A stretch of 17,972 nucleotides of DNA from a bacterium (GTDB lineage: Bacteria; JAMCPX01): positions 1-17,972 of the forward strand of contig JAJYJX010000027.1 of assembly GCA_021789095.1 (NCBI GenBank), read 5' to 3'. The position numbers and the translations under genes are program-made. Shown piece by piece: positions 1 to 11,862 of the stretch. The notes under the pieces are model-generated. The model made no database searches and was not told the origin of the DNA. It saw nothing but the letters and a program-made list of their open reading frames with translations. Numbering within the stretch: the stretch's first letter is position 1; the number at the start of each line of letters is the position of its first letter.

Positions 1-85
1 TCCCTATACCTTGCAGAGGTTTTGGTGTACCTGCATAAGCATTAACTGAGATTAAAATAAATATTAAAACCGTTAGTTTTCTCAT
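1..85 (-). CDS. Small exported protein, N-terminal part only
   Basis: The left window edge cuts this gene, leaving 28 codons. The start is an ATG (83-85, minus strand) with a strong GGGAGG ribosome binding site about 5 bases upstream. The visible N-terminus is MRKLTVLIFILISVNAYAG: two basic residues, a hydrophobic core and an AYA site, which is a classical Sec signal peptide with likely cleavage after residue 18. Nothing of the mature domain is visible beyond GTPKPLQGIG, so no function can be given. Only about 20 nt separate it from the stop of the upstream lipoprotein gene on the same strand, so the two are probably co-transcribed. The start is well supported; the identity is unknown. Confidence 0.7.
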   Translation of the reverse strand, partial: MRKLTVLIFILISVNAYAGTPKPLQGIG

Positions 86-105: not shown

Positions 106-2301
106 TTACATACATGGATGTCCTCCACAGCCGCCTCCTCCTCCTCCACTTGAAGCATAGAACTCGGGTGGATACTCACAATGTATGGTTGCCTCTGGCT
201 CAAGGTGACCATATCCATACTCCTGACATAACCGAGAAATAACTCCTTTATCTACCTGTAGCCAGTGTCCATCCAATGTTTCTGCATGACTATCTATATC
301 CACACTTCTCCCGAGTCTGTGTAATGAATGCGGAATATTCCAGTCAGCAGAAATATCAAACAGCCCGCCATAAACAAGGCTCATGTCATTGATACCAAGG
401 GTTGCATTATTGTGATCACGATAAAAAGAACTCGACATCTGCTGGATATATCCAATTACATCCTCCATTGCCCAGTGATTGTCGGGATGGGCAGGCCTTT
501 GTCCTTTAAGCCTGTAATAGGAGCTTGGAACAAGGCTGGTTAATCCCTCCACGCCAACCATAAACCTCTGTGTATTCGCCACATCAGGCTCTCCATCCAC
601 ATACACCTTAAGCTCATATAAGCCTGAAGCCTCTGGGGGATGCCATATAACATCGCATGAGCCGCTGCTATCTGTTGTACAGGTGTTATTATCAAAAAAT
701 CCTATAGCCGTTGAAACGGTGGCATCATCATGGGAATGCCCGCCGTTCTCATATTCGTTTGAGGAATCTACTCGTTTTATGTCAAATACAAGGGTTTTGT
801 TTGATACATCCTCATTTTCACATACAGGTTTCAGTTGAACGGGTATATCTATATCGGATACTTTTGGCTCAATATCAGGCGGTATAAAATAGCCATACGT
901 CAGGTCACCATAGATGTTTATTATGTATTTTTGCTCACATTTGTACGTTACTGATGCCCAAGGAAGTCCTCCTGATATATAATCTAACTGATAACTGTAG
1001 TCACCCTGCTGCAAAGTATCATTGATTAGATTTCCATTACATTCATAAGTACCAGTATATTTATAGCTACCTTCATCATAAGTAGGAAGGCCTCCACCAG
1101 AACCTTTCAATTCTAATTGAAATGTTCCACCCATTGTTGGCGCAAGTGAACTTACATCCCATGTAAGATATGCTGTGCAAGGGTTATGTTGAACGTCATT
1201 ATAAGAATCACATCCAGAAATATAGCATCCATTTCCCCAATCTACACTACCACAACTATTCCATGCCTCTTTTGACGGTTCAGGACACTGTGTGTCGCCT
1301 ATAATGGTTGGTATTTGCCCACCAAGTGTATACGTAGTGCCATCTTGCATTACACTATACTGTATAGGCAGAGTTACTACTGATTTTATTATTTCGTATT
1401 GTTGCGTAGAAGGTAATTGATAAGTAATTGTTGATTTGATAGTATTTGATTCTGAATGTCCAGATGTGGCATCAGTATAAGACGAATTAGAATTAGAACT
1501 TTTATATAGCCCATCATAATCAGAGTTAGATTGTCGCCAATTTAACTCAATGTCAGAAGAACTACAAAACCACCATCCACTAACAGTTGTATTTGCGACG
1601 TTATCTGTGTGGGTAGAGATTACGAGACATGGGCCACCAACTGTAGAAATACCAGTCCACCTATGATCTGTAGTATCATCTAAAGTTCTTCCATTATCTA
1701 TATCTTGCTGGCTACTTTCAACTTCTATGGAAAAGGCTGCTGGTGCTATCTCTATGGTCCTTTCCCCTTGTGTATCTGTTAACTGAAGTTGCTGAGGTAA
1801 CGCGGTATATATCTGTGAATCTTGCTTGCCATAAAATTGAAATGGACCATTTATAATCTCTTTGCCTCCTATTTCAGCTACTATTTCAAGATAATACAAA
1901 CCATCACTATCTATATTGATCTTATCTTTATACAATGAAAGTGTAGCAAAATATCGTTTACCTGTATGTTCCAGATTGTTACGTTCTTTCCCCCATTTAA
2001 TGTACGTTTCATCTATAAGCTCAGATGTATTCACTATCCAAGCAATGGTACTGCCACTGCGATAAGTAATTCCCGGAGAAAAATTTAATGGATGTATGGC
2101 TGGATTTGATTTTGCTAAGGAATCCTTTGTCTGGAGCGGGTTGAGATTAGCTGGATTATTTATTTGTTGATTACTATTACTAGATGATAAATTTGAATTT
2201 CCGCACGAGCTAAAAAAAATGCTCATTGCAGATATAAGTATACCGGCAATTAAACAAGCATACCTCTGGTGTGTGTGTGTGTGTGTGTGTGTGGCACACA
2301 C
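106..2301 (-). CDS. Large secreted lipoprotein with C-terminal Hedgehog/DD-peptidase-like zinc domain; start region phase-variable
   Basis: The 731-residue frame opens with a GTG that lacks a ribosome binding site. The N-terminus holds an HTHTHTH run from a CA repeat, then a hydrophobic segment (about 16-30) ending FFSSC (Cys33), a lipobox-like signal; I expect a lipid-anchored protein. Residues 34-60 are a Ser/Asn/Gln-rich linker. The middle (about 75-600) is beta-rich, with Trp, Cys and Ser/Gly stretches. I do not recognise it, though parts resemble Ig-like domains. The C-terminal 110 residues contain HRLGRSVDID (His661, Asp668) and, 39 residues on, HCEYP (His707) preceded by Glu701 and Glu703. 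This H-x2-G-x3-D plus late Glu/His layout is that of M15/M74 DD-peptidases and Hedgehog-fold zinc enzymes, suggesting peptidoglycan cleavage, but family and activity are inference. The last residues are SGGGGGG followed by CGGHPCM. The well-placed ATG at 2317 is in another frame (see CA repeat), so as read here the gene may be switched off. Confidence 0.75.
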   Translation of the reverse strand: MCATHTHTHTHQRYACLIAGILISAMSIFFSSCGNSNLSSSNSNQQINNPANLNPLQTKDSLAKSNPAIHPLNFSPGITYRSGSTIAWIVNTSELIDETYIKWGKERNNLEHTGKRYFATLSLYKDKINIDSDGLYYLEIVAEIGGKEIINGPFQFYGKQDSQIYTALPQQLQLTDTQGERTIEIAPAAFSIEVESSQQDIDNGRTLDDTTDHRWTGISTVGGPCLVISTHTDNVANTTVSGWWFCSSSDIELNWRQSNSDYDGLYKSSNSNSSYTDATSGHSESNTIKSTITYQLPSTQQYEIIKSVVTLPIQYSVMQDGTTYTLGGQIPTIIGDTQCPEPSKEAWNSCGSVDWGNGCYISGCDSYNDVQHNPCTAYLTWDVSSLAPTMGGTFQLELKGSGGGLPTYDEGSYKYTGTYECNGNLINDTLQQGDYSYQLDYISGGLPWASVTYKCEQKYIINIYGDLTYGYFIPPDIEPKVSDIDIPVQLKPVCENEDVSNKTLVFDIKRVDSSNEYENGGHSHDDATVSTAIGFFDNNTCTTDSSGSCDVIWHPPEASGLYELKVYVDGEPDVANTQRFMVGVEGLTSLVPSSYYRLKGQRPAHPDNHWAMEDVIGYIQQMSSSFYRDHNNATLGINDMSLVYGGLFDISADWNIPHSLHRLGRSVDIDSHAETLDGHWLQVDKGVISRLCQEYGYGHLEPEATIHCEYPPEFYASSGGGGGGCGGHPCM
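2269..2293 (-). repeat. (CA)12 microsatellite just after the start codon: candidate phase-variation tract
   Basis: Read on the minus strand, twelve CA units plus one C follow ATG AAA AGC TTA ACA GGT GTG TGC. With 12 units the frame from the ATG at 2317 ends at a TAG (2210-2212) after 35 codons. Adding one unit (13, or 10, or 16) puts that ATG in frame with the signal peptide and body of the lipoprotein gene. Slipped-strand mispairing in such tracts is a known switch of surface proteins in bacteria; that it happens here is inferred. Confidence 0.75.
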
Positions 2302-2314
2302 CTGTTAAGCTTTT

Positions 2315-2327
2315 CATAAGTCCTCCT
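2315..2327 (-). promoter_or_regulatory. Strong ribosome binding site and ATG ahead of the CA tract
   Basis: On the minus strand AGGAGG (2322-2327) lies four bases before an ATG (2315-2317). This is the only good initiation signal near the 5' end of the lipoprotein gene. The GTG at 2299-2301 that opens the long frame has no such site, being about 20 bases further down. The true start is therefore most likely the ATG at 2317, in frame only when the CA tract has another length. Confidence 0.7.
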
Positions 2328-11049: not shown

Positions 11050-11862
11050 ATGGGTGACATAAGATTATCGTATTTAATGGCAATCGGTCTAATGTTAAGC
11101 ATTATCATTGGCTATCATCCAGCCGTTGCAGTGGCATTGAATGAAAATTTACCAGTGATAGTTATTCCTGCATATGAAATTATTCCACTGCCTGGGTATG
11201 TTGAGGTACAGATGTCAAAAGATGTGGCAAAAACACAACCTGCTGCAGAAAAAAGTAAAGAAAATGAAGTTGCAAGTCCGCAGGCCGTATCGCGGCCTAT
11301 TCAGAAGCCGGTAGTTGCGGCCGAGGCACCCAAGCCAGCGGAAGAACCCAAGCCGGTAGTTACAGCCGAGGCACCCAAGCCAGCGGAAGAACCCAAGCCG
11401 GTAGTTACAGCCGAGGCACCCAAACCAGCGGAAGAACCCAAACCAGCGGAAGAACCCAAGCCGGTAGTTGCGGCCGAGGCACCCAAACCAGCGGAAGAAC
11501 CCAAGCCGGTAGTTGCGGCCGAGGCACCCAAACCAGTTAAACACAAGGCAGCTGAACCTCACCGTAAGGTGGTAAAAAGAATAAAACATGAGCACATAGC
11601 TGCCGTGGATTCAAGCGCTCCAGGTGTAGAAAAGCAGAAACCGTCTGAACCTACTCAAGCTGTTGAAGAGCCTTCGCCATCTGTAGCTGCACAACCAGTT
11701 TCTCCTTCAGCAGGCATAGAAGAGACACCAACAATCCCTGCCGCTACTGCGGAAGGGAGCAGAATAAGTACGTCAGGCATACTGATTATAATTACAATTA
11801 TAGTTATTGTTATCCTTATTATCCTTGCTTTCGTCACAGGGAAAAAGGGAAAAGAACAATAG
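11050..11862 (+). CDS. Pro/Ala/Glu/Lys-repeat protein anchored at both ends
   Basis: I do not recognise this 270-residue protein. It starts with a hydrophobic signal or anchor segment (about 7-29, with possible cleavage near AVA). A short beta-like stretch with IPAYEIIPLPGYVEV follows, then a long Pro/Ala/Glu/Lys region (about 75-230) built on a 15-residue repeat of the form KPVV-A/T-AEAPKPAEEP. It ends with a strongly hydrophobic helix (about 242-263) and a basic tail, KKGKEQ. The C-terminal helix with its positive tail should anchor it in the inner membrane with the repeats in the periplasm. KP/EP-rich spacers of this kind occur in TonB-like proteins and other envelope linkers as stiff rods, but no TonB C-terminal domain is present. 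GAGAGGG five bases upstream supports the ATG. Its job is unknown; a periplasm-spanning structural or tethering role is a guess. Confidence 0.75.
   Translation: MGDIRLSYLMAIGLMLSIIIGYHPAVAVALNENLPVIVIPAYEIIPLPGYVEVQMSKDVAKTQPAAEKSKENEVASPQAVSRPIQKPVVAAEAPKPAEEPKPVVTAEAPKPAEEPKPVVTAEAPKPAEEPKPAEEPKPVVAAEAPKPAEEPKPVVAAEAPKPVKHKAAEPHRKVVKRIKHEHIAAVDSSAPGVEKQKPSEPTQAVEEPSPSVAAQPVSPSAGIEETPTIPAATAEGSRISTSGILIIITIIVIVILIILAFVTGKKGKEQ
11305..11538 (+). repeat. 45-bp tandem repeats within the Pro-rich protein gene
   Basis: Units start at 11305, 11350, 11395, 11458 and 11503 (the last partial). They are nearly identical at the base level, differing mainly at GCG/ACA codons and AAG/AAA. An extra 18-bp copy of the unit's end (11440-11457) sits between units 3 and 4. 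The near identity points to recent expansion, and all changes keep the reading frame. Confidence 0.85.

Follow-up and report, generated by a model that had tools for sequence, protein, structure and literature searches.

Repeat-driven contingency genes are known mainly from host-bound pathogens, where they are read as a means of immune evasion; in the opa genes of Neisseria, the switching repeat sits near the 5' end of the coding region. The opa genes are multi-copy surface genes that have a CTTCT repeat in common and vary independently of one another (PMC5953494). In Helicobacter pylori, oipA (hopH) is switched by a CT repeat within the signal-peptide coding region (PMC10564699), and it has relatives among the hop adhesin genes (PMC4081817). 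A dinucleotide repeat also controls surface structures in Haemophilus influenzae, as the TA tract of hifA/hifB (PMC2651432), but this tract acts by promoter spacing and not through the coding frame. From the environment, a hypervariable repeat gene has been described in an uncultivated Gracilibacterium, for which slipped-strand mispairing was considered (PMC6851277); its 9-mer repeats encode a protein motif, and the length and sequence of the protein are changed rather than an ON/OFF state. Slippage is established for other simple repeats, at rates typically 100-10,000 times basal (PMC11868660), and the evidence for dinucleotide phase variation is thin (PMC5953494).

The locus that we compared with these systems lies on the minus strand of the window, i.e. 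the whole stretch of 17,972 nucleotides that was analysed. A Shine-Dalgarno sequence, AGGAGG (2322-2327), which was read from the sequence and is conserved in the leader copies described below, precedes the ATG (2315-2317) of the switch reading frame; the ATGA is invariant in 13 copies. From ATG 2317 the strand reads GGTGTGTGC and then enters the C(AC)12 tract (2293-2269). This tract, CACACACACACACACACACACACAC, is an uninterrupted 25 nt consisting of (CA)12 and one C, and its first part is the 3' arm of a GTGTG-TGC-CACAC palindrome (2289-2301). The translation of the ATG frame, MKSLTGVCHTHTHTHTPEVCLFNCRYTYICNEHFF, is closed in this 12-unit state by a TAG (2210-2212) after 35 codons. In contrast, the frame of the signal peptide and lipoprotein body (QRYACLIAGILISAMSIFFSSCGNSN, continuing to 106) is +1 relative to ATG 2317, and it is restored by one additional unit (13) or by the loss of two (10). 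The ON lengths are hence 10, 13 or 16 units, and the tract is OFF in this assembly. The first start codon in the body frame is GTG 2301, which has no Shine-Dalgarno sequence. None of 200 dinucleotide shuffles of the window contained a comparable tract, and (CA)8 occurred at one place only in the 2.15-Mb assembly, namely the window tract.

The original prediction had drawn this same layout, and its start signal and (CA)12 tract, the stop after 35 codons, the arithmetic by which one extra unit joins the ATG to the signal peptide and body (with 10, 13 and 16 units as ON), and the opening of the body frame from a GTG without a ribosome binding site were all confirmed on the minus strand. Its gene size required correction: the long intact lipoprotein frame is present, but it comprises 720 codons without a start codon rather than about 730, and the listed ORF of 731 residues counts 11 residues read from the GTG through the tract. 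From the comparisons given below, we consider it probable that the CA tract serves as a contingency switch, turning translation ON or OFF. Beside this gene, positions 2537-2896 of the window hold a 119-residue ORF whose only match is to the C-terminal 86 positions of DUF72 and which may be what is left of a truncated gene.

The tract belongs to a recurrent 5' unit, which we define as leader, ribosome binding site, ATG, GTGTG-N3-6-CACAC palindrome, CA tract and signal peptide. Copies were found with an ATGAA...GTGTG...CACAC pattern, then by DNA and peptide searches, and then with a leader sequence profile (R1). The 5' unit heads differing exported-protein genes in four genera of one small phylum; approximately 27 leader copies were recovered in nine genomes of this phylum, all belonging to one family, and most of them precede ORFs with an export signal. 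The palindrome or a close variant was present at the same offset just inside the coding region in about 17 of the 27 leader copies, some of which have no expanded tract. In intact copies, the CA tract precedes the hydrophobic core of the signal peptide. The proteins encoded behind the tracts differ: a BNR/PQQ-type beta-propeller protein of 1053 codons follows the tract in G002:C23, and a protein of 938 codons with a C-terminal membrane anchor follows that in G002:C17, both ORFs being long and uninterrupted. A further protein of 1124 codons (G003:C32), whose 5' end is cut by the contig, has an Ig-like domain, a PepSY-like stretch and an HEYGH motif. No match to the 5' unit was obtained in 377 genomes outside the family, and nothing was found by a protein search of plasmids, by a pattern search of viral contigs, or in the literature for the peptide motif. 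The leader also occurs before genes having neither the palindrome nor the CA tract (L156, L158, L163 and L164 in G001, and L161 in G008), most of which are exported-protein genes. Judging from these sequences, the leader seems to be the mark of a larger group of exported proteins under common regulation.

Repeats were then compared by pattern search for CA and AG units over the nine genomes (about 20 Mb). The pattern CACACACACACAC, a CA tract of at least 6.5 units, was found at eight places (G000:C144; G002:C7, C9, C17 and C23; G005:C19, C48 and C112), and all eight are copies of the 5' unit. The control pattern AGAGAGAGAGAGA, an AG tract of the same length, was found at three places, each in frame and coding for Arg-Glu (RERE) stretches; the genes were read as RpoA, EF-G and a rubrerythrin-like protein, which are of housekeeping type. 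We therefore rejected the AG tracts as further switches. The confinement of the CA tracts of at least 6.5 units to the 5' unit indicates that long CA repeats are no general feature of these genomes and that the site is special. Elsewhere in the window, imperfect tandem repeats of 45, 63 and 108 bp (11305-11536) code for Pro/Ala/Glu/Lys-rich (AEEPKPVV) repeats in a 270-residue protein that has a signal at its N-terminus and a membrane segment at its C-terminus; this gene is another candidate for length variation.

The body of the switch gene (106-2268, minus strand) encodes an exported lipoprotein of 720 codons with its stop at 106-108, and consists of the signal peptide QRYACLIAGILISAMSIFFSSC and a mature part. 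It is followed by the 5' end of a partner gene (MRKLTVLIFILISVNAYAGTPKPLQGIG, 1-85, minus strand), which is cut by the window end. The closest homologue, G005:C78, is from another genus and encodes a lipoprotein with 63% identity. Its contig is recorded as the MAG Deltaproteobacteria bacterium FK_Sedi_A_Bin.102, a name that appears to refer to a sediment metagenome assembly. The homologue is also followed by the partner gene, while its other neighbours differ and a clpB-like gene lies upstream. Its 5' end has the ribosome binding site, the ATG, GTGTG...CACAC and 5.5 CA units, and its body is likewise at +1. Comparison of the two genes over 714 aligned codons gave a dN of 0.27, a dS of 0.93 and a dN/dS of 0.29; in the last third, these values were 0.06, 0.57 and 0.11, respectively. 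By this measure, the lipoprotein body is under purifying selection, even though neither of the two known assembled copies is in frame. The last third of the gene (window 109-750 versus L007 4280-4937) is 87% identical at the DNA level between the two genera, against approximately 62% in the first two thirds. This difference, together with the differing gene neighbours, makes a recent transfer or recombination of the C-terminal part likely.

The function of the lipoprotein had been proposed to be that of an exported wall-active enzyme, and this was not established. Searches of Pfam and NCBIfam returned no match, a PDB sequence search gave insignificant matches only, and an AlphaFold2 model built from two sequences was unusable (pLDDT 37). 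Distant homologues from a further organism (G036) likewise precede a gene for a secreted protein and have HR-x-G-x3-D in common with the lipoprotein. Within this motif, H661-x2-G664-x3-D668 is conserved in four homologues, whereas a third metal ligand is not clearly aligned. The motif hints at a zinc peptidase of the M15 kind, a class for which there was no significant profile match in Pfam or NCBIfam.

The selection on the body bears on the best-surviving alternative, namely that microsatellites grew neutrally in dead or dispensable genes and that the out-of-frame copies are pseudogenes. Copies that are interrupted by an insertion sequence (IS) or decayed do exist (G005:C48, G001:C28 and G003:C56b), and several copies lie at contig ends, as this explanation would have it. 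However, the lipoprotein body is intact over 720 codons at a dN/dS of 0.29 with both copies out of frame, the bodies of 938 and 1053 codons behind other tracts are intact as well, and long CA tracts are confined to the 5' unit in the nine genomes. We hence regard neutral decay as improbable.

The frames of the copies were examined next to their tract lengths, all of which are assembly consensus values from fragmented assemblies with one assembly per species. Seven copies with long tracts (5.5-13 units) could be scored. Two were in frame (G002:C23 with 7 units and G005:C19 with 13), four were at +1 (the window with 12.5 units, G005:C78 with 5.5, G005:C112 with 7.5 and G002:C17 with 11.5), and one was at +2 (G002:C7 with 7.5); the offset of G005:C78 may stem from an indel after the tract rather than from the unit number. 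In contrast, the six copies that could be scored among those with a short or degenerate tract (G001:C18; G003:C15, C53, C73 and C56a; G005:C48b) were all in frame, and the association between frame and long or short tract gave p = 0.016 (one-sided Fisher test, hand calculation). Five copies were left unscored: G005:C48 has an IS in the tract, G002:C9 and C2 have the same sequence after the tract to the contig ends, and G001:C28 and G003:C56b are decayed. The threshold for dinucleotides in PhasomeIt is 8 units (PMC5953494). It is reached by the window, with 12 full units, and by three copies with 9, 11.5 and 13 units, whereas the other long-tract copies, with 5.5-7.5 units, are below it. Homologous copies thus range from 5.5 to 13 units, with two ON and five OFF. 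Relatives without the repeat had been expected to speak against a switch, and such relatives were found in part: the closest homologue has 5.5 units, and every relative whose tract is short or degenerate is in frame, as fits a switch that arose when the tract expanded.

If the CA tract or the palindrome were the site of programmed frameshifting, ribosomal or transcriptional, the ATG frame would be joined to the body at a fixed efficiency and the gene would always be expressed at some level. The window gene and its G005:C78 homologue do have an identical +1 offset, and the palindrome precedes the tract in most copies, but other copies are in frame (G002:C23, G005:C19 and the six with short tracts) or at +2 (G002:C7). 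Since the offset is not constant but takes the values 0, +1 and +2, the layout is not accounted for by a fixed programmed frameshift; we rejected a programmed frameshift gene and consider this explanation quite unlikely. Slightly less credible still is translation of the body from a start codon further in, be it GTG 2301 or one after it, with the ATG frame serving as a leader peptide only. GTG 2301 is in the body frame, and in the decayed copy G001:C28 the next gene has its own ribosome binding site while the ATG frame encodes a 33-codon peptide. The Shine-Dalgarno sequence, however, stands before ATG 2317 and not before GTG 2301, and the same ATG is continuous with the signal peptide in eight copies. 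An assembly or PCR error hiding a fixed, in-frame tract is the least credible explanation, for although all data are assembly consensus and errors are known to arise from dinucleotide stutter, tract length varies among several independent copies and genomes, the 25-nt tract is short relative to reads, and out-of-frame copies occur only where the tract is long. The reading of the tract as a phase switch, with which the original prediction began, is well supported by comparison, through the recurrence of leader and tract, the differing unit numbers and frames, the confinement of CA tracts and the purifying selection.

The proposed switch would operate as follows. Through slipped-strand mispairing at replication, the CA tract in the n-region of the signal peptide would gain or lose 2-bp units, presumably in a reversible manner. 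With 12 units, a ribosome starting from ATG 2317 would stop after 35 codons; with 10, 13 or 16 units, it would read through the signal peptide into the lipoprotein. Length changes between ON states would vary only a His-Thr stretch, and additional pairs should be tolerated in the n-region of the signal peptide. Cells of one population could then display differing combinations of surface and secreted proteins. MutS, which would slow dinucleotide slippage, is encoded in all five genomes tested; hence, the switching rate may be modest. Counting against a switch, some copies of the 5' unit are decayed or interrupted.

Upstream of the ATG, the leader has several elements in common among copies (window coordinates, minus strand). 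The -35-like hexamer TTGACA (2454-2459) is conserved, with T-T-G-A invariant in 13 copies (alignment A1). Since a strict scan for sigma-70 promoters of standard spacing was negative at the leader, the hexamer is only suggestive of a promoter element. ACCTCC, which is complementary to the Shine-Dalgarno sequence, lies at -79 from the ATG (2391-2396), and most of the 27 leader copies have the motif or a close variant between about -70 and -90. A hairpin, H1 (AAAACC-CAATTAA-GGTTTT, 2347-2365), is likewise matched in most of the 27 copies by a hairpin in the same place, at approximately -50, formed by many different complementary arms. In a position-restricted hairpin search, the leader hairpin had a mean z of 1.8 against shuffles, which is moderate support. 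RNAalifold predicted no pairs on a MAFFT alignment of the leaders, a null result attributable to misalignment of the hairpin arms. A riboswitch or other known RNA family was rejected, since an Rfam search with E up to 1 returned nothing beyond a tRNA for the window and, for the contig of a relative, two matches below threshold. The simplest guess for the role of the leader is shared regulation of exported proteins.

The CA tract also coincides with junctions between copies. In G005, C112 and C19 are 98% identical after the tract and only 64% identical in the leader, whereas C112, C78 and C48 have 92-95% of the leader in common and differ after the tract. From these two sets of identities, leaders and bodies appear to have been swapped or converted independently of each other, and the point of change lies at the tract or close to it, a reading drawn from fragmented contigs. 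The near-identical pair within this one genome differs in tract length and state, C112 having 7.5 units (OFF) and C19 having 13 (ON).

Other rearrangements were observed at the same site. In G005:C48 (L022 2630-3960), the CA tract itself is the insertion site of an IS that encodes a DDE transposase (Pfam DDE_Tnp_1, DUF4372), and in G002, copies C9 and C2 have one identical sequence after the tract up to the contig ends. The tract is a possible hot spot for insertion. An additional palindrome, GGGGCGATTCACGAATCGCCCC, is present in the leaders of three copies from G005 (L007 2569-2602, L022 2500-2523 and L023 438-461), and short matches to it at other places in several of the family's genomes suggest that it is a REP-like element. 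A broader proposal is that the 5' unit is an exchangeable cassette, in which the CA tract is both a translational switch and the joint for leader and body swaps within a genome. With the shared leader, which is found before tractless exported genes as well, the cassette would give a free-living uncultured phylum a set of exported proteins that is co-regulated, modular and phase-variable, and that originated from the 3' arm of a conserved short palindrome. We put this forward tentatively, as somewhat short of an even chance.

In its mode of action, the proposed switch is of the oipA type and, as a multi-copy set, of the Neisseria opa type. As in oipA and the hop genes, a dinucleotide tract lies in the signal-peptide coding region of a surface protein and the number of units sets the ON or OFF frame, but the unit is CT there and CA here. 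The hop proteins are one homologous family of a host-bound pathogen, whereas here one 5' unit heads unrelated proteins. The products also fall outside the Hop outer-membrane family: the lipoprotein has no Pfam match, and the other bodies are beta-propeller, Ig-like/PepSY or unnamed. The opa genes differ in their pentanucleotide unit and their homologous Opa proteins, and no 5' unit is spread there over unrelated proteins. New features are the CA unit, combined with a 5' unit that unrelated proteins have in common, the presence of junctions at the tract, and the occurrence in an uncultured, apparently environmental phylum.

A contingency-type gene set would here front the exported proteins of uncultured, apparently environmental bacteria. 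If this is confirmed, the selective pressure would be something other than immune evasion, for example phage, predators, competitors or changing substrates. If true, one 5' unit with repeat junctions would provide a simple route to phase-variability for any exported gene.
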